Source: an uncultured Eubacteriales bacterium (lineage in GTDB: Bacteria; Bacillota; Clostridia; Christensenellales; Aristaeellaceae). From it: 32,007 bases of DNA. The stretch's first letter is position 1, and every line of letters begins with the position of its first letter. The position numbers were made by a program, and so were the translations under genes. This document shows positions 8,720 through 32,007 of the stretch, one piece after another. The DNA lies in NCBI GenBank assembly GCA_902793325.1, contig CADBCY010000046.1, forward strand, positions 1-32,007, in the 5' to 3' direction. The notes beneath the pieces are model-generated. The model ran no database searches. It saw only the letters and a list, made by a program, of their open reading frames with translations, and had not been told where the DNA came from.

Positions 8720-12211
<3,492 letters not shown>

Positions 12212-12270
12212 GGGGGAACCTCCTTTGTCGATCGGCGACGGGCGTTCGCCGCCGTCGCCGTGGATCTTTG

Positions 12271-12295
12271 AACCAAACCCGGCCGGTCGGCCGGG
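12271..12295 (-). terminator. Possible weak terminator between the amidohydrolase and oxidoreductase genes
   Basis: CCCGGCC (12278-12284) and GGCCGGG (12289-12295) form a 7-bp stem with a 4-base loop; on the minus strand it is followed by TTTGGTT. The tail is short, so partial termination between the two genes is the most one can say. Confidence 0.4.
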
Positions 12296-12320
12296 GTCGC
12301 GGGTCATCCGGCCGTCGCCG

Positions 12321-13208: not shown

Positions 13209-15656
13209 TTACGCCGTCTCGATGCTCGCGTCCTTCTGCAGGCCCAGCTTTTCGATGGCCTGCTCGCGCATCTTGTACTTCTGGATCTTGCCGGCGTCGT
13301 TCATCGGGAAGCTGTCCACGAACTCGATGTACTTGGGCACCTTGTGCTTGGCCATGTGGTCGAGCACGTACTGCTTCATCTCCTGGACGGTCATCTCCTC
13401 GCCCTCCTTCAGGATGACGCAGGCCATGATCTCCTCGCCCATGGCCTTGTCGGGCACGCCGATGACCTGCACGTCCGAAACCTTCGGGTGGGTGTAGATG
13501 AACTCCTCGATCTCCTTGGGGTAGATGTTCTCGCCGCCGCGGATGATCATGTCCTTGAGCCTGCCGGTGATGCGGTAGTTGCCCTCGGGTGTGCGGCAGG
13601 CCAGATCGCCGGTGTGCAGCCAGCCGTCCTTATCGATGGCGGCGGCGGTGGCCTTGGGCATCTTGTAGTAGCCCTTCATGATGTTGTAGCCGCGCGCGAC
13701 GAACTCGCCGATCACCTCGTCCGGGCAGTCCTCGCCGGTCTCCGGGTCCACGATCTTGCACTCCACCTCCGGGAAAGCGCTGCCCACGGTGGCCACGCGC
13801 ACCTCCAGCGGGTCGGTGGTGCGGCTCATGGTGCAGCCGGGGGAGGCCTCCGTCTGGCCGTACACAATCACGATCTCCGGCATGTGCATCTTCTCCACCA
13901 CGTCCTTCATCACGGCGATGGGGCAGGGGCTGCCGGCCATGATGCCCGTGCGCATGTGGCTGAAGTCGGTCCTGGGGAAGTCCTCGTGGGCCAGCATGGC
14001 GATGAACATCGTGGGCACGCCGTGGAAGGCGGTGATGCGCTCGTTGTGGATGCAGGCCAGCGACGACTTCGGCGAGAAGTAGGGGATGGGCAGTATGGTG
14101 CCGCCGTGGGTCATGGTGGCCGTCATGGCCAGCACCATGCCGAAGCAGTGGAACATGGGCACCTGGATCATCATGCGGTCCGCGGTGGACAGGTCCATGC
14201 CGTCGCCGATCATCTTGCCGTCGTTGACGATGTTGTAGATGTTGCACACGTCGTTCACATCCACGGCCGCGGCCATGCGGCGGATCTCCTCCGCCGGGGT
14301 CTTGGGGGCGTACTCCAGCGACTCCTCCCAGGTGAGCGCGCCGGGCATGCGGAAGCCCACGGTGATCACGTTCCTGAGGAAGGGCAGGCGCCTGGCGTGC
14401 ATGGGCTGGCCGGGCTTCAGGTCCTTCAGCTCCGGGCACAGCTCGTTCACGATCTCCCGGTAGTTGGAATCCCGGTAGCCCTCGATCATCACCAGCGTGT
14501 GGGTGTCGGACTGCCGCAGCAGGTACTCCGCCTCGTGGATCTTGTAGGCGGTGTTCATGGTCACCAGCACCGCGCCGATCTTGGTGGTCGCCCAGAAGGT
14601 CAGGAACCACTGGGGCACGTTGGTGGCCCAGATGGTCACCTTGCTGCCCGCCCGCACGCCCAGGGACACCAGGGCGCGGGCGAATTCGTCCACGTCGTCC
14701 CGGAACTGGCTGTAGGTGCGGGTGTAGTCCAGGGTGGTAAACTTCACCGCGAGCTGGTCGGGGAACTCCTCCACCATGGCGTCCAGCACCTGGGGAAAGG
14801 TCTTTTCGATCAGCGTCTCCTTCTTCCAGGGGAAGCGGCCCGTGTGGCTCTTGTTCCAGTACAGGTGCTTGCGCGCGCGGCGGGTGCTCGCGAAGCGGGA
14901 CATGCAGCTCGAGAAGTGGGTGAGTATGATCTCGATGTCGGACAGCCCGTCGACCCACGCCGGGTTCCACACCAGCGAGATAAAGCCGTCGTAGTTGACG
15001 GAGCGCAGCGCGTCCATCAGCTCCCCGACGGGCAGCGCGCCCTCGCCGATCAGCTCCGGCACCGCGACGCCGCCCTCCCGGCGGAAATCGTGGATGTGCA
15101 CGTGGCGCACGTAGGCGCCCAGGTTGGTGATGGTGGTCTCCGCGTCCTCCCCGGCGCACACGCAGGTGGAGTGCATGTTCCAGGTCGCGGCCAGCCGGTC
15201 GTCGGCGAAGGTGTTCAGCAGGTCGCGCAGCCGCGCGGTGTCGGCGTAGGCCCCGGTCGTCTCCACCAGCAGGGTCACGGGCCGGTCGCCCAACTGCTCC
15301 AGCAGCCGCCCTATGCGCTCCACGCAGGCGGGGGCGCTGTCCTCGTCGGTATGCACGCCCACGCAGGGAATGCCCAGATTCACCGCCAGCTCCACGCACT
15401 CGTCCAGCTCGCCGGGGAAGCCGGGGTCGGTGAAGTCGCCCACGGTATCCACGCAGGGCACGCTCAGCCCCTGCCGGATCAGCGCGCGCCGGGTGGCGGC
15501 GGCCAGCTCCGGGTTGGTGGGGCTGGCCTTGCCGCGGAAGGCGGGGCCGTTGACGTCGCAGATCTCAACGCCCTGCAGCCGGACGTCCGCCGCCACGGCG
15601 CAGAACTCGTTCCAGCCCAGGTCGTTCCAATTCTGAATGGAGAAGGATAGCTTCAA
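13209..15656 (-). CDS. Fusion: sugar-phosphate-isomerase-like TIM barrel plus AMP-dependent acyl-CoA ligase lacking the P-loop
   Basis: An 815-residue two-domain protein. Residues 1 to about 265 look like a xylose-isomerase-like (sugar phosphate isomerase/epimerase) barrel, with QGVEICDVNGPAF, HTDED, TWNMHSTCVC and HVHIHDF. From about 290 to the end it is an acyl-CoA ligase: YGQTEASPG (A5), GWLHTGDLA (A7), RLKDMIIRGGENIYPKE (A8) and NDAGKIQKYKMRE (A10, catalytic Lys). The A3 phosphate-binding loop (YTSGTTGxPKG) expected between VCNI and YNIVNDGK, residues 473/474, is absent. Comparison with the family pattern suggests an in-frame loss of about 17 residues. Without it, normal adenylation is doubtful. 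The start is a TTG, 9 bases after AGGAGG; the frame is open further upstream but without a good start. It lies 71 bases after the LeuA-like gene. Confidence 0.8.
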   Translation of the reverse strand: MKLSFSIQNWNDLGWNEFCAVAADVRLQGVEICDVNGPAFRGKASPTNPELAAATRRALIRQGLSVPCVDTVGDFTDPGFPGELDECVELAVNLGIPCVGVHTDEDSAPACVERIGRLLEQLGDRPVTLLVETTGAYADTARLRDLLNTFADDRLAATWNMHSTCVCAGEDAETTITNLGAYVRHVHIHDFRREGGVAVPELIGEGALPVGELMDALRSVNYDGFISLVWNPAWVDGLSDIEIILTHFSSCMSRFASTRRARKHLYWNKSHTGRFPWKKETLIEKTFPQVLDAMVEEFPDQLAVKFTTLDYTRTYSQFRDDVDEFARALVSLGVRAGSKVTIWATNVPQWFLTFWATTKIGAVLVTMNTAYKIHEAEYLLRQSDTHTLVMIEGYRDSNYREIVNELCPELKDLKPGQPMHARRLPFLRNVITVGFRMPGALTWEESLEYAPKTPAEEIRRMAAAVDVNDVCNIYNIVNDGKMIGDGMDLSTADRMMIQVPMFHCFGMVLAMTATMTHGGTILPIPYFSPKSSLACIHNERITAFHGVPTMFIAMLAHEDFPRTDFSHMRTGIMAGSPCPIAVMKDVVEKMHMPEIVIVYGQTEASPGCTMSRTTDPLEVRVATVGSAFPEVECKIVDPETGEDCPDEVIGEFVARGYNIMKGYYKMPKATAAAIDKDGWLHTGDLACRTPEGNYRITGRLKDMIIRGGENIYPKEIEEFIYTHPKVSDVQVIGVPDKAMGEEIMACVILKEGEEMTVQEMKQYVLDHMAKHKVPKYIEFVDSFPMNDAGKIQKYKMREQAIEKLGLQKDASIETA

Positions 15657-15727
15657 TGTGGTGTTCCTCCTATTATGGGAATCGGCGCAAGCGCAGGCGA
15701 GGGCGGGCGAACGCCGCCCGGAGCCCG

Positions 15728-17134
15728 TCACTCTTCTTCGTACACGATCTTGTTCAGCGCGCTGATGTAGGCGCGGATGGAGGCGCCGATGATGTCGGTG
15801 GAGATGCCGTTGCCGGAGTACAGCCGCCCGCCGGCGCGCAGCTTCACCAGGGCGCTGCCCATGGCCTCGCGGCCCTCGGTCACGGTCTGGATCTGGAAGT
15901 CGTCGAGCTCGTAGTGGTGGCCGATGATCTGCTCAATGGCCAGGAACGCGGCGTCCACGGGGCCGTCGCCGATGGCCACGCAGCGCAGCTTCTGGCCGTC
16001 CTTCTCCAGGGTGAGGTTGGCGGTGGCGGTGATGACGTTGCCGCTGTTGATCACGTAGCTGTCGATGCGGTAGGCCGAGGGCACCTGCATGGCGGTGCTC
16101 GCCACGATGGCGTCCAGCTCCCGCGTGCCCACGAAGTGCTTGCGGGTCGCCACGCGCTTGAACGCCTCGTAGACCTTGGCGTTGTCCTCGTCGGAGAGGT
16201 CGTAGCCCAGCTGGCGCACCACCTTGACGACTTCGCCGATCTCGTCGTTCGCGTCCAGGCACACGTTCGCCATCTCGCCGCTGACGCCGGTGTCGAAGGG
16301 GGAGGACTCGCTCTTGCGGGTCTCCAGCATGCGGTTCAACTGGCCGACGGTGCGCTCCAGCTCCGTGGTGCGCAGGTTCGCCGCGATGTCCAGCGCGCTG
16401 CCCTTCACGGACAGGAACTTCGCCATCTGGGACAGCGTGGGGCAGTCGCCGTGGGCGGCGCACTTCACGCCGTCCGCGCCGCGCGCCACGGCGGCCGCGG
16501 CGCAGGCGGCGGCCATGCTCATGGCGTCGGACGCCTGCACGAAGAACTCCACGCCCATGCCGCCGGGCACGGCGCTGCGGATGTCGGCGAAGAAGTCGGC
16601 GAACTCGTCGGGCAGCAGCACGCCCGCGGTGTCGCACAGCGTGATCCGCACCGCGCCGGCCTCGATGGCGGCGGTCACGGCCCGGATGAGGAACTCCCGC
16701 TCGGCGCGGGTGGCGTCCACGGCGGTGAACTCCACGCTCTCGCAGTGGAAGCGGCACGCCTTCACCTGGGCGGAGATGGCTTCCAGCATGGCGGGCGCCT
16801 TCTTGTGGCAGGCGTACTCCATCTGCACCGGGGACACCGGGGCCAGCACGTTCAACTGCGGGCTGCGGGCGTTGCGCACGCTGTCCCAGGTCTCGGCCAC
16901 GTTGTCGGCGGTCACGCCCACCGCGGCGGAGACCGCGGTCGTCACCATGGAGGCGATGGTCTTGTTCGAGAGGGCGTCGGCCTTGCCGCCCGCGAGGACG
17001 GGCAGCTCGATGGCGTCCACCTTCAGCCGGTCCAGCGCGCGGGCCATTTCCAGCTTCTCCTTGAAGGTGAGGGCGTTTTCCCGCTGGGACGCGGATTCGC
17101 GCAGGGTCATGTCGATCAGCTTGATTGCCTTCAT
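15728..17134 (-). CDS. LeuA-like protein (isopropylmalate synthase fold) without the HxH metal site
   Basis: A 468-residue protein with the two-part architecture of 2-isopropylmalate synthase. The N-terminal barrel starts with IDMTLRES (Asp 8, Arg 12 of the DxTLRD motif). The C-terminal LeuA allosteric/dimerisation domain is well conserved, with AIGDGPVDAAFLAIEQII and DIIGASIRAYISALN. The barrel departs from active enzymes: where they have VHCHND, this protein has VQASDA (Gln 200, Ser 202), and the later GxGERxGN loop reads CAAHGDCPT. Both metal-binding His and the Asn ligand are therefore gone. It may be an altered-function enzyme or a leucine-sensing regulator; I would not call it a working synthase. 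The start follows GGAGTGACACC. A T-box lies directly upstream. Confidence 0.75.
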   Translation of the reverse strand: MKAIKLIDMTLRESASQRENALTFKEKLEMARALDRLKVDAIELPVLAGGKADALSNKTIASMVTTAVSAAVGVTADNVAETWDSVRNARSPQLNVLAPVSPVQMEYACHKKAPAMLEAISAQVKACRFHCESVEFTAVDATRAEREFLIRAVTAAIEAGAVRITLCDTAGVLLPDEFADFFADIRSAVPGGMGVEFFVQASDAMSMAAACAAAAVARGADGVKCAAHGDCPTLSQMAKFLSVKGSALDIAANLRTTELERTVGQLNRMLETRKSESSPFDTGVSGEMANVCLDANDEIGEVVKVVRQLGYDLSDEDNAKVYEAFKRVATRKHFVGTRELDAIVASTAMQVPSAYRIDSYVINSGNVITATANLTLEKDGQKLRCVAIGDGPVDAAFLAIEQIIGHHYELDDFQIQTVTEGREAMGSALVKLRAGGRLYSGNGISTDIIGASIRAYISALNKIVYEEE

Positions 17135-17185
17135 GGTGTCACTCCTATGCATGTAATGTCGATTGCCCGGATATCGGGTCGGGTG

Positions 17186-17461
17186 AAAAAAAGCCCAGAA
17201 GCCGTAGCTTCTGGGACGATCGTGTTCAATCGCGGTACCACCCGGATTGCCGCATGTGCGGCCGCTCATCAGCGCTCAGGCAAGCGCTTAGCCATGGTAA
17301 CGGGGCCGCCGTACCTCCCTACTGCCCGGGGCGCGGGCGTTCAGGAGATCTGCTCAGGCAGGAGACTGCGCATCTGCTCGCGCGCCGGCTCACACCCGCC
17401 GCCGGCTCTCTGAAGCGCTGCACAAACCGCATAATGCCTTCATCGCATTTCCGATTCACTT
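17186..17461 (-). ncRNA. T-box riboswitch leader, probable leucine specificity
   Basis: The leader of the LeuA-like gene has the conserved T-box GGGTGGTACCGCG (17231-17243). It is followed by a terminator with a 9-bp stem (17194-17202 with 17207-17215), a UACG-type loop on the transcript and seven U's (17186-17192). Upstream, stem I has the AGAGAGCCGGCGG and GTGAGCCGGC distal-loop pattern. Pairing AGGCA (17435-17439) with TGCCT (17356-17360) and TGTGCA (17419-17424) with TGCGCA (17367-17372) leaves GUCUCC as the 3' side of the specifier loop. This contains CUC (Leu, 17362-17364) or GUC (Val). The UGGU bulge fits a tRNA with discriminator A, as in both Leu and Val tRNAs. The neighbouring LeuA-like gene favours Leu. 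Confidence 0.92.
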
Positions 17462-20592: not shown

Positions 20593-20622
20593 TTGCAATA
20601 CCGTCATGGAATCAGGTATAAT
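20593..20622 (+). promoter_or_regulatory. Sigma-A-type promoter for fumarase and possibly the hdr-frd cluster
   Basis: TTGCAA (20593-20598), an 18-base spacer and a perfect TATAAT (20617-20622). This gives a leader of about 80 bases before fumC. I find no convincing promoter between fumC and hdrB, so this one may drive the whole region. Confidence 0.65.
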
Positions 20623-20707: not shown

Positions 20708-22084
20708 ATGGAATACCGCATCGAACACGATTCCATGGGCGAAATTCGGGTGCCCGCGGACCGCTACTGGGGCGCGCAGACCGAGCGCAGCCACCACAAC
20801 TTTCCCATCGGCGTGGGCCTGGAGACCATGCCCCGGGAGATCACCCACGCCTTCGGCATCCTGAAAAAGGCCGCCGCGCTGGCCAACCACGGCCTGAAGC
20901 CCGAGAAGCTGACCGATGAAAAGCTGGCCGCCATCTCCCAGGCCTGCGACGAGGTCATCTCCGGCGCGCTGAACGACCACTTCCCGCTGGTCGTGTGGCA
21001 GACCGGCTCCGGCACCCAGTCCAACATGAATGCCAATGAGGTCATCGCCAACCGGGGCAACGAGATCGCCGGGAAGAAGCTGCTGCACCCCAACGACGAC
21101 ATCAACATGTCCCAGTCCTCCAACGACACCTTCCCCACCGCCATGCACATCGCCGCGGTGGTGGCCGTGGAGGATCGCGTGCTGCCGGCCATCCGCAAGC
21201 TGGCGCAGACCTTCCGCCGCCTGGAGGACGAGAACCGCGGCGTGGTCAAGTCCGGCCGCACCCACCTGCAGGACGCCGTGCCCATCGACTTCGCGCAGGA
21301 GATCTCCGGCTGGCGCGCCAGCCTGGAGCGGGACGCGGAGCTGCTGGCGCTGGCGGTCGGCCCGCTCAAGGAGCTCGCGCTGGGCGGCACCGCCGTGGGC
21401 ACCGGCCTGAACGCCCCCAAGGGCTTCGACGCCGCCGTGGCGGAGGAGGTCTCCCGCCTCACCGGCAAGGCCTTCGTCACCGCCCCCAACAAGTTCCACG
21501 CCCTCACCAGCAAGGATGAGATCGCCTTCGCGCACGGGGCGCTGAAGGCGCTGGCGGCGGACATGATGAAGATCGCCAACGACGTGCGCTGGCTGGCCTC
21601 CGGCCCCCGCGACGGCCTGGGCGAGATTCGCATTCCCGAGAACGAGCCCGGCAGCTCCATCATGCCCGGCAAGGTGAACCCCACCCAGTGCGAGGCCGTC
21701 ACCATGGTGGCCGTGCAGGTGATGGGCAACGACGTGGCCGTGGGCATCGCGGCGTCCCAGGGCAACTTCGAGCTGAACGTGTTCATGCCCGTGGCCGCCT
21801 ACAACTTCCTCCAGTCCGCGCGGCTGCTGGCGGAGAGCATCGAGTCCTTCAACGACCGCTGCGCCGTGGGCATCACCGCCAACCGCGAGAAGATGCACCA
21901 CAACCTGCACAACTCGCTGATGCTGGTCACGGCGCTGAACCCCTACATCGGCTACGAGAACGCCGCCAAGACCGCCAAGAAGGCCTTCAAGGAGAACATC
22001 TCCCTGAAGGAAGCCTGCGTGGCGCTGGGCTTCTTGACGCCGGAGCGGTTCGACGAGGTCTTCCACCCCGAACAGATGGTTTAG
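20708..22084 (+). CDS. fumC: Class II fumarase (fumarate hydratase)
   Basis: A 458-residue cytosolic enzyme that interconverts malate and fumarate. It has the oxygen-stable class II signature: YWGAQTERSHHNFPIG near the start, TGSGTQSNMNANEV, SQSSNDTFPTAMH, SGRTHLQDAVP with the catalytic His (186), and the lyase signature GSSIMPGKVNPTQ (from 315). The length is typical. The start is the ATG after GGAGGGAGCGATT. It lies immediately upstream of the hdr-flx-frd cluster, so its likely job is to supply fumarate as the electron acceptor for that cluster. That link is an inference from gene order. Argininosuccinate and aspartate lyases share the fold, but the motifs here are those of fumarase. Confidence 0.95.
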   Translation: MEYRIEHDSMGEIRVPADRYWGAQTERSHHNFPIGVGLETMPREITHAFGILKKAAALANHGLKPEKLTDEKLAAISQACDEVISGALNDHFPLVVWQTGSGTQSNMNANEVIANRGNEIAGKKLLHPNDDINMSQSSNDTFPTAMHIAAVVAVEDRVLPAIRKLAQTFRRLEDENRGVVKSGRTHLQDAVPIDFAQEISGWRASLERDAELLALAVGPLKELALGGTAVGTGLNAPKGFDAAVAEEVSRLTGKAFVTAPNKFHALTSKDEIAFAHGALKALAADMMKIANDVRWLASGPRDGLGEIRIPENEPGSSIMPGKVNPTQCEAVTMVAVQVMGNDVAVGIAASQGNFELNVFMPVAAYNFLQSARLLAESIESFNDRCAVGITANREKMHHNLHNSLMLVTALNPYIGYENAAKTAKKAFKENISLKEACVALGFLTPERFDEVFHPEQMV

Positions 22085-22090
22085 GGATTG

Positions 22091-22156
22091 GGCAACCGGC
22101 GCAAAGCGCGGTTGGCCGGGTCGGCGGTTACTGAAAGGAAACGCCGACAATCATGC
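22091..22156. repeat. 66-bp structured repeat, copy 1
   Basis: First of two near-identical 66-bp units. It can form two hairpins: CAACC-GCGC with GCGCGGTTG (one bulged G, AAA loop), and GTCGGCG with CGCCGAC around a 15-base loop. It begins 6 bases after the fumC stop. Confidence 0.85.
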
Positions 22157-22169
22157 CAGGAAGTGATTA

Positions 22170-22235
22170 GGCAACCGGCGCGAAGCGCGGTTGGCCGGGT
22201 CGGCGGTTGCCGAAGGGAAGCGCCGACAATCATGC
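22170..22235. repeat. 66-bp structured repeat, copy 2
   Basis: Second copy, 79 bases downstream of the first, differing at 5 of 66 positions. The differences spare both sets of hairpin stems, lying in loops or at stem ends. It ends 24 bases before the hdrB start, so the pair fills the gap between fumC and the cluster. It resembles small interspersed REP/BIME-like elements, or a duplicated mRNA-processing element. Confidence 0.85.
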
Positions 22236-22259
22236 TATTATTAGTTAGGGAGAGAACGT

Positions 22260-23063
22260 ATGATGAAATTCAGTTATTTCCCCGGCTGCACGCTGAAGAC
22301 CCGCGGCGCCGCGCTGGATCGGTGCGGCCGGGCGGCGGCGGAGGCGCTGGGCTTCGCGCTGGAGGAGCTGCCCGAGTGGCAGTGCTGCGGCGCGGTGTAC
22401 CCCAACGCCCGGGACGAGATCGCCACGCGGCTGTCCTCGGTCCGCGCGCTGATGGCCGCGCGGGACGCGGGCACGGAGCTGGTGACGCTGTGCTCCGCCT
22501 GCCACCACGTGATCAAGCGGGTGAACGGCGACATCCGCCGGGACGAGGACATCCGGGCCAAGGTGAACAACTACCTGAAGCCCGAGGCGCCCTACGCGGG
22601 CGAGGCCGAGGCCCTGCACTACCTGGAGGTGCTGCGGGACCGCGTCGGCTTCGACGCCGTGAAGCAGAAGGTCGCGGCGCCGCTGGCGGGCATGAAGATC
22701 GGCGCGTACTACGGCTGCCTGCTGCTGCGCCCGAGCAAGGAGCTGGCCTTCGACGACCCGGAGAACCCCTCCGTGATGGAAGACCTGATCCGCGCGCTGG
22801 GCGCGGAGCCCGTGGTGTACGCCATGCGCAACGAGTGCTGCGGCGGCTACGTGACCATCGAAAACCCGGACTACGCGAAGAAGCAGGCGCAGCGCATCGT
22901 GGACAACGCGAAGGCCCTGGGCGCCGAATGCCTGATCACCGCGTGCCCGCTGTGCATGTACAACCTGCGCGCCAACACCGACGGCAGCCTGCCGGTCTAC
23001 TACTTTACCGAGCTGCTGGCGAAGGCGTTGGGCGTGGACGGAGAGGAGGCAAAGCAGGCATGA
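22260..23063 (+). CDS. hdrB: Heterodisulfide reductase subunit B homologue (two CCG domains)
   Basis: A 267-residue protein with two complete cysteine-rich CCG domains. The first is C10, then C42-C43, then C78-x2-C81; the second is C153, then C193-C194, then C229-x2-C232. In HdrB these hold two non-cubane [4Fe-4S] clusters that reduce a disulfide. All cysteines are present, so a working thiol/disulfide or electron-exit site is likely. In non-methanogens the disulfide is not CoM-CoB; the partner is unknown here. It is the first gene of the cluster, with GGGAG before tandem ATGs, of which I took the first. Its stop overlaps the hdrC start (ATGA). Confidence 0.92.
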   Translation: MMKFSYFPGCTLKTRGAALDRCGRAAAEALGFALEELPEWQCCGAVYPNARDEIATRLSSVRALMAARDAGTELVTLCSACHHVIKRVNGDIRRDEDIRAKVNNYLKPEAPYAGEAEALHYLEVLRDRVGFDAVKQKVAAPLAGMKIGAYYGCLLLRPSKELAFDDPENPSVMEDLIRALGAEPVVYAMRNECCGGYVTIENPDYAKKQAQRIVDNAKALGAECLITACPLCMYNLRANTDGSLPVYYFTELLAKALGVDGEEAKQA

Positions 23064-23440
23064 TCGACATGATGGAGCAGATCACGCGCATCGCGGGCGT
23101 CAATCCCCGCAAGTGCATGCGCTGCGGCAAGTGCTCCGGCGCGTGTCCCGCCTACGACGAGATGGAGTACCATCCCCACCAGTTCGTGAGCATGGTGGAG
23201 AACGGCCGGATCGACGAGCTGATGCGCTCGAAGGGCATCTACACCTGCCTGAGCTGCTTCGCCTGCGTGGAGCGCTGCCCCCGCAGCGTGGAGCCGGCGA
23301 AGCTGATCGAGGCCGTGCGCTGCGCCGTGGAACGCCAGCAGGGCATGGACCGCCTGCGGCCCGAGGCCGTCCCCGGGCTGCTGAACCCCGACCTGCCCCA
23401 GCAGGCCATCACCAGCGCGTTCCGAAAATACAGGAAGTAA
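23060..23440 (+). CDS. hdrC: Heterodisulfide reductase subunit C homologue
   Basis: A 126-residue small iron-sulfur protein with two [4Fe-4S] motifs, CMRCGKCSGACP (from Cys 19) and CLSCFACVERCP (from Cys 63). It is shorter than methanogen HdrC but has the same layout. It relays electrons between HdrA and HdrB. The ATG overlaps the hdrB stop by four bases, implying translational coupling, with GGAGG 10 bases upstream. hdrA follows after 12 bases. Confidence 0.9.
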   Translation: MIDMMEQITRIAGVNPRKCMRCGKCSGACPAYDEMEYHPHQFVSMVENGRIDELMRSKGIYTCLSCFACVERCPRSVEPAKLIEAVRCAVERQQGMDRLRPEAVPGLLNPDLPQQAITSAFRKYRK

Positions 23441-23452
23441 GGAGGAAGAGGC

Positions 23453-25444
23453 ATGCAGAGAATTGGCGTATTCGTATGCTGGTGCGGCAGCAACATCGCC
23501 GCCACCGTGGATGTGGAAGCCGTCTCCCAGGCGCTCGCCAAAGAGCCCGGCGTGGTCTTTTCCACCAACTATCAGTACATGTGCTCCCAGACGGGCCAGG
23601 ACATGATCCAGAGCAAAATCCACGAGTACAACCTGTCCGCCGTGGTCATCTGCTCCTGCTCGCCGCGCATGCACGAGGCCACCTTCCGCCGCACCTGCGA
23701 GAAGGCCGGGCTGAACCCCTACATGGTGGAGATCGCCAACATCCGCGAGCAGTGCTCCTGGATCCACAAGGACAGGGCCGAGGCCACCGAGAAGGCCGTG
23801 ATCCTGGGCCGGGCGGCCATCGCCAAGGTGCAACTGAACGCGCCGCTCACCGCGGGCACCAGCCCGGTGACCAAGCGCGCGCTGGTCATCGGCGGCGGCA
23901 TCGCGGGCATCCAGACGGCGCTGGACATCGCCGACGCCGGCTTCGAGGTGGACATCGTGGAAAAGGAGCCCACCATCGGCGGCAAGATGACCCAGATCGA
24001 CAAGACCTTCCCCACCCTGGACTGCGCGGCCTGTATACTGACCCCCAAGATGGTGGACTGCGCCCAGAACGAGAAGATCACGATTTACGCCTACTCCGAG
24101 GTGGAGGCCGTCAGCGGCTTCGTGGGCAGCTTCCGCGTGAAGATCCGCCGCAAGGCGCGCTACGTGAAGGAGGATGTCTGCACCGGCTGCGGGCTGTGCA
24201 CCGAGAAGTGCCCCCAGAAGAAGGTGCCCAACGCCTTCAACCTGGGCCTGGACACCCGCCGGGCGATCTACATTCCCTTCGCGCAGGCGGTGCCCAAGGT
24301 GGCCACCATCGACGCCGACTACTGCACCATGCTCCGCACCGGCAAGTGCGGCGTGTGCAGCAAGGTGTGCGAGGCCGGGGCCATCGACTACAAGCAGAAG
24401 GACGAGGTCATCGAGCGCGAGTACGGCGCCATCGTGGCCGCCACCGGCTACAACCCCATCAGCCTGGCGCAGTTCGACGAGTTCGCCTACAGCCAGAGCC
24501 CGGACGTGGTGTCTTCCCTTGAGTTCGAGCGGCTGATGAACGCCGCGGGCCCCACCGGCGGCACGCTGCTGCGCCCCTCGGACGGCACGCACCCCAAGAC
24601 CATCGTGTTCGTGCAATGCGTGGGCAGCCGCTGCGACGGCGCGGAGAAGGGCAAGCCCTACTGCTCCAAGATCTGCTGCATGTACACCGCCAAGCACGCC
24701 ATGCTGTGCCGCGAGAAGTACCCCGACACCGACGTGTACGTGTTCTACATCGACGTGCGCACCCCCGGCAAGAACTTCGACGAGTTCTACCGCCGGGCCG
24801 TGGAGGAGTACGGCGTGCACTACATCAAGGGCATGGTGGGCAAGGTGGTGCCGGAGAACGGCAAGCTGAAGGTGCGGGCCAGCGACCTGCTGGACGGCCG
24901 CCAGTTGCACATCGACGCCGACATGGTGGTGCTGGCCGCGGCCATCGAGCCGGACAAGTCCGCCCGCCCGCTGGCGACGATGCTCACCGCCTCCATGGAC
25001 ACCAACGACTTCTTCACCGAGGCCCACCCGAAGCTGCGCCCCGTGGAGAGCCCCACGGCGGGCATCTTCCTCTCCGGCGCGTGCCAGGGCCCGAAGGACA
25101 TTCCCGAGACCGTGGCGCAGGCCGGCGCGGCGGCCAGCAAGGTCATCGGCCTTTTGAGCAAGGACCAGCTCACCTGCAATCCCTGCGTGGCCGCGCCGAA
25201 CGAGATGATGTGCAACGGCTGCTCGAGCTGCGAGAAGGTCTGTCCCTACGGGGCCATCACCTATGTAGATAAGGAGTTCCGCGGGCCCAACCGCACCACC
25301 CTCATCCGCCGCGTGGCCCAGGTCAACCCGGCGGTGTGCCAGGGCTGCGGCGCGTGCACGGTGGCCTGTCCCTCCGGCGCGATGGATTTGAAGGGCTTCA
25401 GCAATCGACAGATCATGGCGGAGGTGGATGCGATATGTCTGTAA
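23453..25444 (+). CDS. hdrA: Heterodisulfide reductase subunit A homologue (FAD, electron-bifurcating type)
   Basis: A 663-residue flavoprotein of full HdrA architecture. The N-terminal part starts with IGVFVCWCGSNIAATVDV. The FAD-binding VIGGGIAGIQTALDIADAGF motif is at about 145-164, followed by the DCAACILTPKMVDC cysteine stretch. An inserted ferredoxin follows (CTGCGLCTEKCP from 243; then CGVCSKVCEAGAI), the thioredoxin-reductase-like core continues, and two C-terminal [4Fe-4S] motifs close it (CNGCSSCEKVCP from 587, CQGCGACTVACP from 629). In known complexes the HdrA FAD bifurcates electrons between HdrB and a low-potential ferredoxin acceptor. All clusters are retained. The ribosome binding site is AAGGAGGAAGAGGC. 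The stop overlaps the mvhD start by 10 bases. Confidence 0.95.
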   Translation: MQRIGVFVCWCGSNIAATVDVEAVSQALAKEPGVVFSTNYQYMCSQTGQDMIQSKIHEYNLSAVVICSCSPRMHEATFRRTCEKAGLNPYMVEIANIREQCSWIHKDRAEATEKAVILGRAAIAKVQLNAPLTAGTSPVTKRALVIGGGIAGIQTALDIADAGFEVDIVEKEPTIGGKMTQIDKTFPTLDCAACILTPKMVDCAQNEKITIYAYSEVEAVSGFVGSFRVKIRRKARYVKEDVCTGCGLCTEKCPQKKVPNAFNLGLDTRRAIYIPFAQAVPKVATIDADYCTMLRTGKCGVCSKVCEAGAIDYKQKDEVIEREYGAIVAATGYNPISLAQFDEFAYSQSPDVVSSLEFERLMNAAGPTGGTLLRPSDGTHPKTIVFVQCVGSRCDGAEKGKPYCSKICCMYTAKHAMLCREKYPDTDVYVFYIDVRTPGKNFDEFYRRAVEEYGVHYIKGMVGKVVPENGKLKVRASDLLDGRQLHIDADMVVLAAAIEPDKSARPLATMLTASMDTNDFFTEAHPKLRPVESPTAGIFLSGACQGPKDIPETVAQAGAAASKVIGLLSKDQLTCNPCVAAPNEMMCNGCSSCEKVCPYGAITYVDKEFRGPNRTTLIRRVAQVNPAVCQGCGACTVACPSGAMDLKGFSNRQIMAEVDAICL

Positions 25445-25872
25445 ACGAGAGCTTCAGGCCGACCATCGTGGCCTTCTGCTGCAACTGGTGCTCCTACGCG
25501 GGCGCGGACCTGTCGGGCACCAACCGGCTGAACTACCCCGCCAACGTGAAGATCATCCGCATCCCCTGCTCCTGCCGGCTGAACCCCATGTTCATCCTGC
25601 GGGCGTTCCAGCGGGGCGCGGACGGGGTGATCCTGTGCGGCTGCCACCCCGGCGACTGCCATTATACCACCGGCAACTACTATGCCCGCCGCCGCATGAC
25701 CCTGCTGTTTTCCATGCTGGACTACCTGGGCGTGGAACGGGAGCGCACCCGCGTGGAGTGGGTCTCCGCCGCCGAGGGCGCCAAGTTCGCCGCCACGATG
25801 AATGAGTTCGTGGAAACCGTAACGAAGCTGGGCAAGAACCGGAGATTGGAGGATTTGCGATGCTCCAAGTGA
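25435..25872 (+). CDS. mvhD: MvhD/FlxD-type iron-sulfur subunit
   Basis: A 145-residue MvhD-family protein with FCCNWCSYAGAD near the N-terminus, IPCSCRLNP, and LCGCHPGDCHYTTGN. The cysteines bind an iron-sulfur cluster (a [2Fe-2S] in characterised relatives). This subunit docks onto HdrA and feeds electrons into it from a hydrogenase, formate dehydrogenase or NADH module. No hydrogenase is nearby; the flavin reductase subunit five kilobases along the same cluster suggests NAD(P)H as donor, making this the FlxD equivalent. The start is the ATG after GGAGGTGGATGCGAT and overlaps the end of hdrA; the stop overlaps the next start by 13 bases. Confidence 0.9.
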   Translation: MSVNESFRPTIVAFCCNWCSYAGADLSGTNRLNYPANVKIIRIPCSCRLNPMFILRAFQRGADGVILCGCHPGDCHYTTGNYYARRRMTLLFSMLDYLGVERERTRVEWVSAAEGAKFAATMNEFVETVTKLGKNRRLEDLRCSK

Positions 25873-26828
25873 AGGCCATAGAGCTGCTGGAGAGCGGCGC
25901 GGTCGACCGCGTGCTCGGCTGGAAGAAGGGCGATTTCTTCTACGACCTCACGCCCGCGGTGTTCGAATCCGCGGACGAGGTGCGGCGGGAGTTCGCCTAC
26001 GGCCCCTTCGCCGGCGCCAACCTCTCCAAGTACCTGATCGCCGAGAGCCGCAGGGGCGGCAAGGTCGGCGTGTTCCTGAAGCCCTGCGACACCTACTCCC
26101 TGGTGCAGCTTCTGAAGGAGCACCGCGTGCTCCGGGAGAACGTGTACGTCGTGGGCGTGCAGTGCGAGGGCATGTGCGATATCGAAAAGATCCGCGACGC
26201 GGGCTGCGCGGGCGTCACCGCCGTGGAGGAGGACGGCGACCGGCTGAAGGTCGCCACGCTGTACGGCGAGCGCACCGTGGACCGCCGGGACGTGCTGCTG
26301 GAAAAGTGCGCCGCCTGCAAGAGCAGGAAGCTCGTGATCTACGACGAGCTGATCGGCGAGCAGGGCGACGTGATCGACAGCAACCGCTTCGACAAGGTGG
26401 CGGCGCTGGAGGCCATGACCCCCGAGCAGCGCTACGAGTTCTGGCGGGGCGAGCTGAGCCGCTGCATCCGCTGCAACGCCTGCCGCAACGTCTGTCCCGC
26501 GTGCAGCTGCGAGAAGTGCGTGTTCGACAACCCCGATTCCGGCGTGCGGAACAAGGCCGCCGCGGATTCCTTCGAGGAGAACATGTTCCACATCATCCGC
26601 GCGTTCCACGTGGCATCCCGCTGCACCGACTGCGGCGAGTGCTCCCGGGTGTGCCCGCAGCACATCCCGCTGCACCTGCTGAACCGCAAGTTCATCAAGG
26701 ACATCAACGAGCTGTACGGCGAGTACCAGGCCGGAGCGGACTTCGATTCCCGCCCGCCGCTGATGGACTTCACCCAGGGCGATTGCGAGCCCTCCATCGT
26801 GTACCAAAGAGGGGGTGCGAAGGCATGA
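25860..26828 (+). CDS. 4Fe-4S dicluster protein with FrhB-like N-terminal part (Flx module)
   Basis: A 322-residue iron-sulfur protein. The N-terminal half resembles the FrhB/F420-dehydrogenase beta group (GVFLKPCDTYSLVQLLKEH, then VVGVQCEGMCD). A LEKCAACKSRK stretch follows, then two ferredoxin motifs, CIRCNACRNVCPACSCEKC and CTDCGECSRVCP. It fits one of the FlxB/FlxC electron-relay subunits of FlxABCD-HdrABC systems; I cannot say from sequence alone which letter applies, so no symbol is given. Translation starts inside the mvhD coding region, with GGAGG 7 bases upstream, and its stop overlaps the next start (ATGA). Confidence 0.8.
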   Translation: MLQVKAIELLESGAVDRVLGWKKGDFFYDLTPAVFESADEVRREFAYGPFAGANLSKYLIAESRRGGKVGVFLKPCDTYSLVQLLKEHRVLRENVYVVGVQCEGMCDIEKIRDAGCAGVTAVEEDGDRLKVATLYGERTVDRRDVLLEKCAACKSRKLVIYDELIGEQGDVIDSNRFDKVAALEAMTPEQRYEFWRGELSRCIRCNACRNVCPACSCEKCVFDNPDSGVRNKAAADSFEENMFHIIRAFHVASRCTDCGECSRVCPQHIPLHLLNRKFIKDINELYGEYQAGADFDSRPPLMDFTQGDCEPSIVYQRGGAKA

Positions 26829-27850
26829 TGAAGCGAATCCCCCGCGGCGAAATCGACCGGCTGTTCGCGGCCCTGGCGGGCATGCAGAAGCTGTACATCC
26901 CCGCGGACGACCCCTCCGGCCAGGCGCGGTTTACCCCCTGGGCCGAGGGCATGGCGCTGACGCAGCGCCTGAACACCGCGCGCAGCGCCAAGGACCTGTT
27001 CTTCCCCCAGGTGGAGAACCTGGTGGGCTTCAAGGTGACCGGCAAGCAGATTGAGATGATCGAAACCCGCGACCCGCTGGAGGACTTCATACTCTTCGGC
27101 GTGCGCGCCTGCGACCTGCGGGGCTTTGAGATTCTGGACAGCGTGTTCCTCTCCGATCCCGTGGACACCTACTACCAGAGCCGCCGGCAGCACGCGACCG
27201 TCGTCACGCTGGCCTGCTCCCGGCCCGAGGAAACCTGCTTCTGCGGCAACTTCGGCATCGACCCGGCCGAGCCCGGCGGCGACGTGAGCTGCTGGCTCAC
27301 CGAGGACAGCCTCTGCTGGCGCGCCAATACGGAAAAGGGCGAGGCGCTCACCGCGGCGCTGCCGTTCCTGGAGGACGGCGGCGAGGACGCGGCGCAGGCG
27401 CAGCGGGAGGCCGTCCGTGAGATCGCGGCGCGGCTGCCGCTCAACCGCCTCGACCTCTCGGCCTTCGGCCCCGGCAAGACGCAGGCGCTGTTCAACCGAC
27501 CCGAGTGGAAGCGCCTCTCCGAGGCCTGCCTGGGCTGCGGCACGTGCACGTTCGTGTGCCCTACCTGCCAGTGCTACGACATCGAGGAGTTCAACGACGG
27601 CGAGACCGTGCGGCGCTTCCGCTGCTGGGACAGTTGCATGTACTCCGACTTCACCCAGATGTCCGCCGGCCAGCCCCGGCCCACCCAGTTGGAGCGCTTC
27701 CGCCAGCGGTTCATGCACAAGCTGGTGTACTACCCCGACAACAACGACGGCGCCTTCGGCTGCGTGGGCTGCGGCCGGTGCCTGCAGAAGTGCCCGATCC
27801 ACATGAACATCGTCAAGGTCGTCAAAACGCTGGGAGGTGACGGAGCATGA
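26825..27850 (+). CDS. 4Fe-4S dicluster protein, AsrA-like (Flx module)
   Basis: A 341-residue protein like the A subunit of anaerobic sulfite reductase and hydrogenase beta chains. The N-terminal ~220 residues include FGVRACDLRGFEILD and LACSRPEETCFCGNFG. Two C-terminal [4Fe-4S] motifs follow, CLGCGTCTFVCPTCQC (from 235) and CVGCGRCLQKCP (from 313). AsrA-type proteins pass electrons from an AsrB/PyrK-like flavin subunit, and the next gene encodes exactly such a subunit. It is therefore the second relay subunit of an Flx-type module. ATGA overlaps occur at both ends, showing tight coupling with both neighbours. Confidence 0.8.
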   Translation: MMKRIPRGEIDRLFAALAGMQKLYIPADDPSGQARFTPWAEGMALTQRLNTARSAKDLFFPQVENLVGFKVTGKQIEMIETRDPLEDFILFGVRACDLRGFEILDSVFLSDPVDTYYQSRRQHATVVTLACSRPEETCFCGNFGIDPAEPGGDVSCWLTEDSLCWRANTEKGEALTAALPFLEDGGEDAAQAQREAVREIAARLPLNRLDLSAFGPGKTQALFNRPEWKRLSEACLGCGTCTFVCPTCQCYDIEEFNDGETVRRFRCWDSCMYSDFTQMSAGQPRPTQLERFRQRFMHKLVYYPDNNDGAFGCVGCGRCLQKCPIHMNIVKVVKTLGGDGA

Positions 27851-28674
27851 TGCGCGATCCGCTGATTCCCGCCGTGGGCGTCGTCACCAAGATCCGCGTC
27901 GACACCCCGGACGTCAAGACCTTCCGCGTGGTGGGCCTGGACGGAAAAAAGCCCTTTGAGCACATCCCCGGCCAGTGCGCCATGCTCTCCGTGCCCGGGG
28001 TGGGGGAAGCGCTGTTCTCCATCACGTCCTCGCCCACCGAGCCGGACTTCCTGGAGTTCTCCATCAAGAAGTGCGGCTGCGTCACCGACTGGCTGCACGC
28101 CATGGACGAGGGCCAGCAGGTCACCCTGCGCGGGCCCTACGGCAACGGCTTCCCCGTGGACACCGACTTCGCCGGGAAGGACCTGGTGTTCGTGGCCGGC
28201 GGCATCGGCCTGGCGCCGCTGCACTCGGTGATTAACTACTGCCGCCACTACCGGGACCGCTACGGCAGGATCGACATCGTGTACGGCTCCCGCTCCAAGC
28301 AGGATTTGGTGGACTACCAGGAGATCCTGGACACCTGGTGCAACGAGGACGGCATCAACGTCCACCTGACCATCGACCGGGAACAGCCCGACTGGGACGG
28401 CCACGTGGGCTTCGTGCCCAACTACGTCAAGGAGCTGGGCTTCGACACCTCCAGCACCGTGGTCATGTGCGGGCCGCCCATCATGATCAAGTTCACCCTG
28501 GCGGGCCTGATGGAGCTGGGCTTCGCCCGCGAGACCATCTACACCACACTGGAGCTTCGGATGAAGTGCGCGCTGGGCAAGTGCGGCCGCTGCAACATCG
28601 GCTCCAAGTACGTCTGCAAGGACGGCCCGGTGTTCCGCTTCGACCAACTGGACGAACTGCCCGACGAGTACTGA
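27847..28674 (+). CDS. flxA: FAD/NAD(P)H-binding oxidoreductase subunit (FlxA/AsrB/PyrK-like)
   Basis: A 275-residue ferredoxin-NADP-reductase-fold protein. The FAD-binding barrel has IPGQCAMLSVPG and LFSITSSP. The nucleotide-binding half has LVFVAGGIGLAPL and VVMCGPPIMIKFT. A C-terminal [2Fe-2S] motif starts at Cys 241 (CALGKCGRC with a fourth Cys at 257), as in PyrK and AsrB. It should oxidise NADH or NADPH and pass electrons to the preceding AsrA-like protein and on through MvhD to HdrA. Which pyridine nucleotide is used cannot be decided. The start overlaps the previous stop (ATGA) with GGGAGGTGACGG upstream. The FrdB-like gene follows after 15 bases. Confidence 0.88.
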   Translation: MMRDPLIPAVGVVTKIRVDTPDVKTFRVVGLDGKKPFEHIPGQCAMLSVPGVGEALFSITSSPTEPDFLEFSIKKCGCVTDWLHAMDEGQQVTLRGPYGNGFPVDTDFAGKDLVFVAGGIGLAPLHSVINYCRHYRDRYGRIDIVYGSRSKQDLVDYQEILDTWCNEDGINVHLTIDREQPDWDGHVGFVPNYVKELGFDTSSTVVMCGPPIMIKFTLAGLMELGFARETIYTTLELRMKCALGKCGRCNIGSKYVCKDGPVFRFDQLDELPDEY

Positions 28675-28689
28675 GGAGGCAGACTGACT

Positions 28690-29364
28690 ATGGAAAATAT
28701 GGTAAACGTCTATCTGTTCGGCAAGAAGTACAGCGTGCCGGACAACCTGACCATCATGGAGGCCATGGAGTATGCCGGCTATAAGCTGGTGCGGGGCGTG
28801 GGCTGCCGCAACGGCTTCTGCGGGGCCTGCGCCACGGTGTACCGCGTGAAGGGCGACCGCGAGCTGAAGGCCGCGCTGGCCTGCTCCACCAAGGTGGAAA
28901 ACGACATGTACGTGGCCACCCTGCCCTTCTTCCCGCTCATCAAGGAAGGGTACGACATCGAGAAGGTGCGCCCGGACGAGCAGGTCATGATGCAGCTCTA
29001 CCCCGAGATCTACGCCTGCGTGGGCTGCAACGCCTGCACCAAGAGCTGCTCTCAGGGCCTGAACGTGATGCAGTACATCGCCTACGCCCAGCGCGGCGAG
29101 TACGCGAAGTGCGCCGAGCTCAGCTTCGACTGCGTGATGTGCGGCATCTGCTCCTCCCGCTGCCCGGCGGGCATCAGCCACCCGCAGGTGGCCATGCTGG
29201 CGCGCCGGCTGAACGGCAAGTACCTGGCCCCCGAGTCGAAGCACCTGACCCAGCGGGTGAAGGAGATCGGCGAGGGCGCGTTCGACGCGGAGCTGGCGGC
29301 CATGATGGCCCGTCCCGTGGGCGAGCTGAAGGAACTGTACGACCACCGCGACATCGAAGCGTAA
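28690..29364 (+). CDS. FrdB/SdhB-like iron-sulfur protein
   Basis: A 224-residue protein with an N-terminal plant-type [2Fe-2S] domain (CRNGFCGAC at 39-47, further Cys at 65). Two C-terminal [4Fe-4S] motifs follow, CVGCNACTKSCSQGL (110-120) and CVMCGICSSRCPAGI (148-158). It matches the iron-sulfur subunit of fumarate reductases, except that both C-terminal clusters look like [4Fe-4S]. Together with the separate HdrB it holds the parts found in one chain in TfrB of thiol:fumarate reductase. It should connect the electron-transfer module to the following flavoprotein. The ribosome binding site is GAGGAGGCAG, slightly far from the ATG; a second ATG three codons on is possible. Confidence 0.85.
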   Translation: MENMVNVYLFGKKYSVPDNLTIMEAMEYAGYKLVRGVGCRNGFCGACATVYRVKGDRELKAALACSTKVENDMYVATLPFFPLIKEGYDIEKVRPDEQVMMQLYPEIYACVGCNACTKSCSQGLNVMQYIAYAQRGEYAKCAELSFDCVMCGICSSRCPAGISHPQVAMLARRLNGKYLAPESKHLTQRVKEIGEGAFDAELAAMMARPVGELKELYDHRDIEA

Positions 29365-29376
29365 GGAGGGGCGAAT

Positions 29377-30978
29377 ATGGTTTTCACCGAGGAAATGCTG
29401 GCTTCCATGAAGAAGGTCGAGGCCGCCCGGGCGGAGAACATCGCCCTGGAACCCCGGCGCATGACGGCGGACGAGAAGGACGCCCTGCTGGCCGCCTACC
29501 ATCCCGACTACCGGGACGAGGCCTTCACCGCCATCCGCCTGGGCCCGAACGCGGGCGAAAAGGTGCCGGTGGAGCTGAACGCCGTGCTGGAGGGCCGCAG
29601 CCGCGTGCTGGATTTGAAGGTCGACCTCGAGCGGATCGACTACGACGTGGACGTGCTGGTGATCGGCGGCGGCGGCGCGGGCTCTTCCGCGGCCATCGAG
29701 GCTGACGCCGCGGGCGCGAAGGTGATGATCGTCACCAAGCTGCGCATCGGCGACGCCAACACCATGATGGCCGAGGGCGGCATCCAGGCCGCCGACAAGC
29801 CCGGGGATTCCCCCGCCCAGCACTACCTGGACGTGATGGGCGGCGGCCACTACTGCAACCGGCCCGAGCTGGTGCGCAAGCTGGTCAGCGACGGTCCGGC
29901 CTGCATCCAGTGGCTGAACGAGCTGGGCGTCGAGTTCGACAAGGCGCCCGACGGCACCATGATCACCACCCACGGCGGCGGCACGTCCCGCAAGCGCATG
30001 CACGCGGCGGCGGACTACTCCGGCGCGGAGATCATGCGCACGCTGCGCGACGAGGTGCTGAACCGCAACATCCCCGTGGTGGACTTCACCGCCGCCATCG
30101 AGATCCTCAAGGACGCGGACGGCCGGGCCGCCGGCGCGGTGCTGCTGAACATGGAGACCGGCGAGGTGCGCGTGGCGCGCGCGAAGTGCGTGATCATCGC
30201 CACCGGCGGCGCGGGCCGCATGCACTACCAGGGCTTCCCGACCTCCAACCACTACGGCGCCACGGCCGACGGCCTGGTGCTGGCCTACCGCGCGGGCGCA
30301 AAGCTGCTCTACCAGGATACCCTGCAATACCACCCCACGGGCGTGGCCTTCCCCCAGCAGATCTACGGCGCGCTGGTGACGGAAAAGGTGCGCTCCATGG
30401 GCGCGAAGCTGATCAACAGCGAGGGCGAGTGCTTCATGCACCCGCTGGAGACCCGCGACGTGGCCGCGGCCTCCATCATCCGCGAGTGCTCCACCCGCGG
30501 CAAGGGCGTGAACACCGGCACGGGCAGGGCCGTGTGGCTGGATACCCCGATGATCGACGCCATCCACGGCAAGGGCACGCTGGAGAAGCGCCTGCCCGCC
30601 ATGCTGCGGATGTACCTCAAGTTCGGCATCGACATGCGCGAGACGCCCATACTGGTCTATCCCACGCTGCACTACCAGAACGGCGGCGTGGAGATCGACG
30701 ACCGCTGCCGCACCGCCGTGGAGAACCTGTACGTGGCCGGCGAGGCCGCCGGCGGCGTGCACGGCCGCAACCGCCTGATGGGCAACAGCCTGCTGGACGT
30801 GATCGTGTTCGGCCGCAACGCCGGGCAGCAGGCCGCCGCCGCGGCGAAGGACGTCGCCGAGCCGAAGGGCCTCAACCTCGCCCACGTGGACGCCTACGAG
30901 GCGGAGCTCTCCCGCCTGGGCGTGAAGGACGCCGAGCCCTCCCCGAAGCTGCTGCCGGATTACACGAGGAAGTTCTGA
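29377..30978 (+). CDS. Soluble fumarate reductase-like flavoprotein (FrdA/TfrA-like)
   Basis: A 533-residue FAD protein of the fumarate reductase/succinate dehydrogenase family. An N-terminal extension of about 88 residues precedes the dinucleotide motif VIGGGGAGSSAA (from 95). The active-site residues expected for fumarate reduction are present: His 319 (YHPTG), Arg 360 (TRDVAA), His 432 (PTLHYQNGG) and Arg 466 (HGRNRLMGNS). The His that binds FAD covalently in membrane Frd/Sdh (HTxxAEGG) is Asn 128 here (NTMMAEGG), so FAD should be noncovalent, as in soluble enzymes. No FrdC/D membrane anchor follows. It is the last gene of the cluster, 12 bases after the FrdB-like gene, with GGAGGGGCGAAT before the ATG. 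L-aspartate oxidase is a relative but lacks such a context. Confidence 0.88.
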   Translation: MVFTEEMLASMKKVEAARAENIALEPRRMTADEKDALLAAYHPDYRDEAFTAIRLGPNAGEKVPVELNAVLEGRSRVLDLKVDLERIDYDVDVLVIGGGGAGSSAAIEADAAGAKVMIVTKLRIGDANTMMAEGGIQAADKPGDSPAQHYLDVMGGGHYCNRPELVRKLVSDGPACIQWLNELGVEFDKAPDGTMITTHGGGTSRKRMHAAADYSGAEIMRTLRDEVLNRNIPVVDFTAAIEILKDADGRAAGAVLLNMETGEVRVARAKCVIIATGGAGRMHYQGFPTSNHYGATADGLVLAYRAGAKLLYQDTLQYHPTGVAFPQQIYGALVTEKVRSMGAKLINSEGECFMHPLETRDVAAASIIRECSTRGKGVNTGTGRAVWLDTPMIDAIHGKGTLEKRLPAMLRMYLKFGIDMRETPILVYPTLHYQNGGVEIDDRCRTAVENLYVAGEAAGGVHGRNRLMGNSLLDVIVFGRNAGQQAAAAAKDVAEPKGLNLAHVDAYEAELSRLGVKDAEPSPKLLPDYTRKF

Positions 30979-31004: not shown

Positions 31005-31045
31005 CACAAAAAGAGGGGCTGCTTCCTTTCGGAAGCAGCCCCTCT
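31005..31045 (-). terminator. Strong terminator for groEL, also ending the hdr-frd cluster
   Basis: A perfect 15-bp stem, 31012-31026 with 31031-31045, with a 4-base loop. On the minus strand it is followed by TTTTTG, a good rho-independent terminator for groEL. On the plus strand there is no T-tract, but the stem lies just past the fumarate-reductase-like gene and may end that transcript too. Confidence 0.85.

Positions 31046-31085: not shown

Positions 31086-32007
<922 letters not shown>

Follow-up and report, generated by a model that had tools for sequence, protein, structure and literature searches.

We examined a window of 32,007 nucleotides, which is one contig (C46) of the draft genome of an uncultured Eubacteriales bacterium (3.23 Mb in 67 contigs). 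On its plus strand are a fumarase gene (fumC) and then hdrB, hdrC, hdrA, flxD (mvhD), flxC, flxB, flxA, a frdB-like gene, and a frdA-like gene. Our reading is that the product of this operon is probably an NADH:fumarate oxidoreductase, soluble and cytoplasmic, with ferredoxin as a second electron acceptor. The reading starts from the gene content, gene order, conservation, and active-site residues of the operon, and from the rarity of rival enzymes among the genomes we searched, all of which we observed directly.

In the complex that these proteins are expected to form, FlxA would accept hydride from NADH, the presumed donor, and FlxB, FlxC, and FlxD would relay the electrons to the flavin adenine dinucleotide (FAD) of HdrA, which would split each electron pair. 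The low-potential electron would pass through the ferredoxin-type clusters of HdrA to ferredoxin, and the high-potential electron would pass through HdrC, HdrB, and the FrdB-like protein to the FAD of FrdA. FrdA would then reduce fumarate supplied by the neighboring fumarase, so that the net reaction, in its inferred direction, would be 2 NADH + fumarate + oxidized ferredoxin -> 2 NAD+ + succinate + reduced ferredoxin. The bifurcation, and with it the reduction of ferredoxin, is suggested by homology to HdrA. HdrB most likely serves as a direct wire, not as a disulfide reductase. Computed from redox potentials, the bifurcating reaction yields about -33 to -49 kJ/mol and is energetically allowed.

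A sequence-only reading of this DNA had listed the ten genes from fumC to frdA; their positions and strand are as it claimed, and Pfam and NCBIfam matches agree with the names it gave. It had also described them as tightly spaced, which is accurate after hdrB, where genes overlap or lie at most 15 bases apart (-4, 12, -10, -13, -4, -4, 15, and 12 bases, in order), but fumC stands 175 bases from hdrB. The absence of a membrane anchor held up: no hydropathy window in the ten proteins exceeds 1.6, so no membrane-like segment was found among them, and by this measure they include no anchor subunits of the kind that a complex II quinol:fumarate reductase has. Because the same order recurs in dozens of genomes, as described below, the gene block exceeds what chance would produce.

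The flavoprotein FrdA has the substrate residues that the sequence-only reading had assigned to it, given that H319, R360, H432, and R466 align with their E. coli FrdA counterparts. In an alignment with E. coli FrdA and NadB, these four residues together with T335 and E336 match dicarboxylate-site residues. T335 is kept in 156 of 157 relatives and the other five in all 157. The predicted model of FrdA has E. coli FrdA (5vpn/1kf6) as its top PDB matches (E value 5e-29, template modeling [TM] score 0.58). FrdA has an N-terminal extension of approximately 88 residues, predicted with confidence (block pLDDT, the predicted local distance difference test, 82 to 96), for which we found no Pfam match and no significant PDB sequence match (best E value 0.45). 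The Pfam search gave no PF02910 match in FrdA.

Position 128 of FrdA is Asn (also in 156 of 157 relatives), and it aligns with the His that binds flavin covalently in E. coli FrdA. Because this His is replaced by Asn, the FAD of FrdA should be non-covalent, judging by the alignment. In E. coli variants and in flavocytochrome c, non-covalent flavin favors fumarate reduction over succinate oxidation; by analogy, a non-covalent FAD would favor the same direction in FrdA. The sole His at this position among the 157 proteins is in the FrdA encoded at 10001-11590 of locus L114.

The 'FrdB' label of the sequence-only reading is apt for an Fe-S protein but not for a canonical FrdB: the protein scores 32.9 bits against the canonical model (dhsB, cut-off 88), and the 3Fe-4S pattern was not found in it. 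Its 12 ligand-type motif cysteines are kept in 152 to 153 of 153 relatives and would match a set of two 4Fe-4S clusters plus one 2Fe-2S cluster. We considered membership in canonical complex II and rejected it; the dicarboxylate residues are present, but the anchor, a canonical FrdB score, and the flavin-binding His are missing.

HdrB has two complete CCG motifs, with all ten cysteines, in 111 of 111 relatives. Its best NCBIfam matches, both under their cut-offs, are SdhE of methylmenaquinol:fumarate reductase (155 bits) and CoB-CoM HdrB (146 bits). The HdrB-like SdhE works with FrdB, in an enzyme (SdhABE) that is membrane- and quinol-dependent, unlike the operon proteins, which have no membrane-like segment. 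HdrA reaches 799 bits against the HdrA2 model (cut-off 1100), and its residues 3 to 660 align over the whole length with the solved HdrA 5odc_A (694 bits). The curated cut-offs for HdrA, HdrB, and HdrC, which the operon proteins do not reach, were set for methanogen proteins. Motif cysteines of HdrA at 243-306, 389-409, 587-597, and 629-639 are kept in 31 to 32 of 32 relatives, and C67, C394, and C544 in 19 to 30. FlxA is most like sulfhydrogenase gamma (PDB 9nez_C, 192 bits) and AsrB. By family matches, all seven subunit types of FlxABCD-HdrABC are present, the same seven as in the Desulfovibrio system (Ramos 2015). That system is not known to include FrdAB, and its acceptor is of the thiol type.

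We surveyed an even sample of 291 genomes of the class. FrdA of the operon type was found in 40 of them (61 to 75% identity, 100% for the query genome; next best at most 38%), as was HdrA of the operon type (at least 56% identity). The two occur together in 39 of 41 genomes (we applied Fisher tests to this co-occurrence and to the RnfC contrast below), and the two exceptions are metagenome-assembled genomes that are 75% and 62% complete. Among the 39 other FrdA loci in the class, 29 have all nine genes in the query order (including L078, where frdA runs off the contig), one is rearranged, and nine are cut by contig ends, all nine showing flx genes; no class FrdA locus lacks hdr/flx genes (0 of 39). 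In the rearranged locus, of genome G269, a class I fumarase gene is followed by frdBA-hdrBCA-flxDCBA, with all nine genes present. The operon of G269 (L077, L181) is also near an acetyl-CoA hydrolase/transferase-type gene, and this genome has methylmalonyl-CoA mutase, a context that suggests propionate formation. At locus L069 (G173), hdrA is in two overlapping pieces, one with an internal stop, which is either a sequencing error or a broken gene.

A scan of named genomes found at least 584 relatives, of which the best 80 were kept; these include Ruminococcus flavefaciens FD-1 and Blautia glucerasea but not Pseudoclostridium thermosuccinogenes. Among these best 80, 62 loci are complete (49 with fumC), 12 are contig-cut with flx or hdr genes, six are cut so close to frdA that no call could be made, and none has another arrangement. 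The class and named sets, 119 loci in all (39 + 80), have four loci in common. For comparison, we fetched the DNA around two of three control HdrA matches (the third is G065). The match in G022 (48% identity) adjoins frames like GlcD/GcvH, and the one in G037 adjoins flxDCBA matches and a frame like formate-tetrahydrofolate ligase (frames read by eye); neither fetched stretch has a frdA match. There are also six weak FrdA matches in the class (35 to 38% identity), and the one whose surroundings were fetched, in G015, has no hdr/flx match beside it.

In the fetched DNA of the 119 loci, fumC is near the operon in 62, a class I fumarase gene in 20, and neither in 37; the two never occur together. 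At the 24 class loci where there is room both upstream and downstream, fumC is found at 11, the class I gene at 8, and neither at 5 (family assignment was checked on two loci). Because two unrelated fumarases occur near the same operon, fumarate is the likely substrate. Other recurrent neighbors are an Asp-Al_Ex permease gene (25 of 39 class loci and 42 of 80 named loci) and a lactate/malate-dehydrogenase-type gene (20 of 39 and 42 of 80). Methylmalonyl-CoA mutase was found in two of the 40 carrier genomes and not in the query genome, where pieces of phosphoenolpyruvate carboxykinase are present at contig ends. Possible ferredoxin sinks are FeFe hydrogenase, which passes its cut-off in 33 of 40 carriers, and RnfC, found in 20 of 40 at E <1e-72, a stand-in for a cut-off; the query genome has both. 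Elsewhere in the window (8720-12307, minus strand), a pyruvate:ferredoxin oxidoreductase of 1195 residues is a second ferredoxin-reducing enzyme.

One alternative is electron transfer through the same proteins without bifurcation. Flx-HdrABC would then send both electrons to fumarate, with the ferredoxin-facing clusters of HdrA idle or admitting reduced ferredoxin; if NADH reduced fumarate directly, about 68 kJ/mol would be released (computed from redox potentials), and because RnfC is below the stand-in threshold in half of the carriers, reduced ferredoxin is not always converted to an ion gradient. Such a relay would have no need of HdrA, and the nearly invariant inserted and C-terminal ferredoxin-type cysteines of HdrA argue against it, as does the prevalence of FeFe hydrogenase as a ferredoxin sink, so we consider it unlikely. 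We give still less weight to a thiol shuttle, in which HdrABC-Flx would reduce an unknown disulfide and FrdAB would oxidize the resulting thiol as in thiol:fumarate reductase. The complete CCG motifs of HdrB would suit it, as would the best NCBIfam match of FrdA, which is TfrA (347 bits, cut-off 718). But a CCG search (E value 0.001) gave exactly two matches, in one frame of 261 to 322 residues, in 37 of 40 carrier genomes (two more were found in G179 and G269, and none in G071, where the operon contig ends in flxC). Given that these 37 have no CCG domain outside a single protein, a separate thiol-oxidizing HdrB-type unit is unlikely in most carriers, and one HdrB would have to serve both half reactions. 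Methanogen TfrB is one fused protein with its own HdrB part, which the FrdB-like protein lacks. No DsrC-type match was found among the operon proteins, the part of the genome searched for DsrC. One paper does name ferredoxin and thiols as the acceptors of electrons from Flx-Hdr (PMC7282089); we set the shuttle aside because of the single CCG protein and the lack of an HdrB part in the FrdB-like protein.

Membership in TfrAB was likewise rejected. FrdA scores best against TfrA, and FrdB-type and HdrB-type parts are combined in both systems, but here they are separate proteins of 224 and 267 residues, HdrA and Flx are added, and the curated cut-offs are not reached (347, 40, and 39 bits, against 718 for TfrA and 385 for TfrB). 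It is very improbable that FrdA is an L-aspartate oxidase, or a reductase of another unsaturated acid, with the fumarase as a chance neighbor. FrdA does score 287 bits against the NadB model (cut-off 453), and urocanate reductase and flavocytochrome c are among its PDB relatives. What makes an aspartate oxidase unlikely is that His199 of FrdA replaces Glu121, a functional residue of E. coli NadB, in the alignment, and that NadA was found in 15 of 40 carriers and not in the query genome; on these grounds we rejected NadB as an identity for FrdA. Against another acid in general, the two unrelated fumarases recur near the operon, and among ten inspected loci of wider relatives, single ones adjoin genes for pyruvate carboxylase, malic enzyme, lactate/malate dehydrogenase, and succinyl-CoA synthetase.

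These wider relatives come from a survey of 398 genomes of the phylum, in which 38 others carry FrdA at 49 to 64% identity (39 loci). The fetched DNA has hdrA with flx genes at 16 of the 39 loci, in several gene orders; hdrB and hdrC without an hdrA/flx match at four; and no hdr/flx match (E value 1e-10) at 19. Among the 19, the DNA of L199 stops 106 bases ahead of frdA, another three loci have only 2.1 to 3.2 kb of upstream DNA, and L227 shows no frdB either. A class I fumarase gene is near 11 of the 39, eight of them among the 19. The sequence-only reading had held that routine separation of the hdr-flx and frd genes in relatives would refute the coupling; we saw no such separation in the class, but in the wider relatives we did.

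Several results weigh against the reading of the operon as a bifurcating enzyme. Because those 19 loci lack hdr/flx matches, some of them beside cytochromes (single loci adjoin a NapC-type cytochrome or a 4Fe-4S/cytochrome b561 protein), FrdBA does not need Hdr-Flx. HdrA could relay electrons without splitting them. The predicted model of the FrdB-like protein has a predicted TM (pTM) score of 0.48, is unsure between domains, and has weak fold matches. RnfC is rarer in carriers than in the rest of the class sample (192 of 251; 212 of 291 overall; Fisher p approximately 0.0009, kinship uncorrected), a pattern at odds with a simple Flx-Hdr-Rnf energy chain. In favor of the reading, canonical dhsB is above cut-off in two of 40 carriers, in a survey of rival enzymes that did not extend to flavocytochrome-type fumarate reductases. 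In the literature searched (top papers, with most subscription papers and all bioRxiv preprints outside), we found no purified enzyme or biochemical proof. The coupling of Flx-Hdr to a soluble fumarate reductase, as the sequence-only reading had it, nonetheless gains support from the gene neighborhood, the fumarases, the active-site residues, the rarity of canonical FrdB, and the single CCG protein.

The reductase core FrdBA changes partners and remains among C4-acid genes. This weakens the view that FrdBA and Flx-Hdr are always one unit, and it supports FrdBA as a module that would be fed by HdrBC when Hdr-linked. In a tree of 111 FrdA sequences (from 160, thinned at 90% identity), hdr-flx linkage appears in several separate places, with 10 label changes against 24.8 on average over 300 shuffles; contig cuts made some labels wrong (L117, L120, L137, and L160 as 'none', L077 as 'hdrBC'). 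A broader proposal is that FrdBA forms its own type of soluble fumarate reductase core, marked by the 88-residue extension, no C-terminal domain, non-covalent FAD, and an FrdB whose only cluster motifs are 2Fe-2S and 4Fe-4S, and that across the phylum this core joins different electron donors (bifurcating Flx-HdrABC, HdrBC alone, or membrane cytochromes). In this proposal the bifurcating form, with HdrB as a wire and not a disulfide reductase, would be the main succinate route in a large number of gut Clostridia, perhaps hundreds. We regard the case for this proposal as evenly balanced.

Coupling of Flx-Hdr with fumarate reductase is already proposed in print. The paper on the 'succinate operon' of P. 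thermosuccinogenes cites a 2019 preprint by Koendjbiharie and van Kranenburg for the proposal. That paper describes a gene plan like ours, with the fumarase gene first, then Flx-Hdr, then fumarate reductase, and proposes ferredoxin-linked fumarate reduction (PMC7282089). Our operon is likewise one block in the same order; the likeness is one of gene content and order, by description, and the tags RS03365, RS03360-30, and RS03325-20 fit one, seven, and two genes when counted in steps of five. According to the same text, a gene of unknown function (a possible succinate transporter) follows that operon, whereas groEL on the other strand follows ours. It also reports that the operon is up approximately 4-fold under CO2 limitation, not significantly for every subunit, and that H2 addition nearly abolished succinate, which its authors read as consistent with coupling (PMC7282089).

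A second precedent is in tubeworm symbionts and Thioflavicoccus, where tfrAB and flxABCD-hdrABC are in one reverse tricarboxylic acid cluster comparable to our operon, and electron delivery from Flx-Hdr to TfrAB is proposed in the sulfur-oxidizing symbionts (PMC6315080, PMC11636981). One of these texts suggests direct delivery to fumarate reductase (PMC6315080). By description, those clusters are interleaved with korABCD and their enzyme is named thiol:fumarate reductase; tfrAB did not follow the expression pattern of the cluster (PMC11636981). To this our analysis adds the breadth of the operon's occurrence and the argument from a single HdrB, as well as the signatures of FrdB and of the Asn at the flavin-binding position, a rearranged form of the operon, and the partner switching.

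If our reading is right, many bacteria of the gut and rumen would conserve energy as they form succinate, without a membrane enzyme, and HdrB would gain a role without any disulfide. The reduced ferredoxin would feed hydrogen formation or Rnf, changing how ATP, H2, and succinate are accounted for in these communities. Because R. flavefaciens and B. glucerasea carry the operon, the reading is testable in cultured organisms.

Features of the operon and its surroundings, in window positions.
Feature	Position	Strand	Evidence or remark
Promoter-like site, TTGCAA, 18, TATAAT	20593..20622	+	upstream of fumC; 10/12 consensus bases, a consensus match only (2 such sites in region vs 1.2 expected)
fumC, class II fumarase	20708..22084	+	TIGR00979, 701 bits (above cut-off of 665)
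Dispersed repeat, two copies	22083..22235	+	between fumC and hdrB; 74 bases matched, spacing 79
hdrB, two CCG domains	22260..23063	+	PF02754; all ten motif cysteines
hdrC, two 4Fe-4S motifs	23060..23440	+	Fer4 family match
hdrA, FAD protein with inserted and C-terminal ferredoxin-type motifs	23453..25444	+	alignment with 5odc_A
flxD / mvhD	25435..25872	+	PF02662 (FlpD/MvhD), 185 bits
flxC-like 4Fe-4S protein	25860..26828	+	Fer4 family match
flxB-like 4Fe-4S protein, sulfhydrogenase beta / AsrA-like	26825..27850	+	PF17179 (Fer4_22); ShyB 173 bits, below cut-off
flxA-like FAD/NAD(P) protein, AsrB / HydG / PyrK-like	27847..28674	+	PF00175, PF10418
frdB-like protein, 2Fe-2S and two 4Fe-4S motifs	28690..29364	+	Fer2 and Fer4 family matches
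frdA-like flavoprotein	29377..30978	+	PF00890 (FAD_binding_2), 242 bits
FrdA N-terminal extension, ~88 residues	29377..29640	+	without Pfam match
15-pair stem with T tract	31012..31045	-	between frdA and convergent groEL; T tract fits groEL, not the operon
groEL-type match	31086-32003	-	convergent with the operon

The dispersed repeat in the gap between fumC and hdrB has 39 matches genome-wide, some in tandem. Farther from the operon, a T-box leader (Rfam, 101 bits) was detected at 17209-17452 on the minus strand, upstream of a LeuA/HMGL-type synthase gene (15728-17269, minus strand). At 13209-15731 on the minus strand, one frame encodes a xylose-isomerase-like TIM barrel and then an AMP-binding ligase, a possible fusion.

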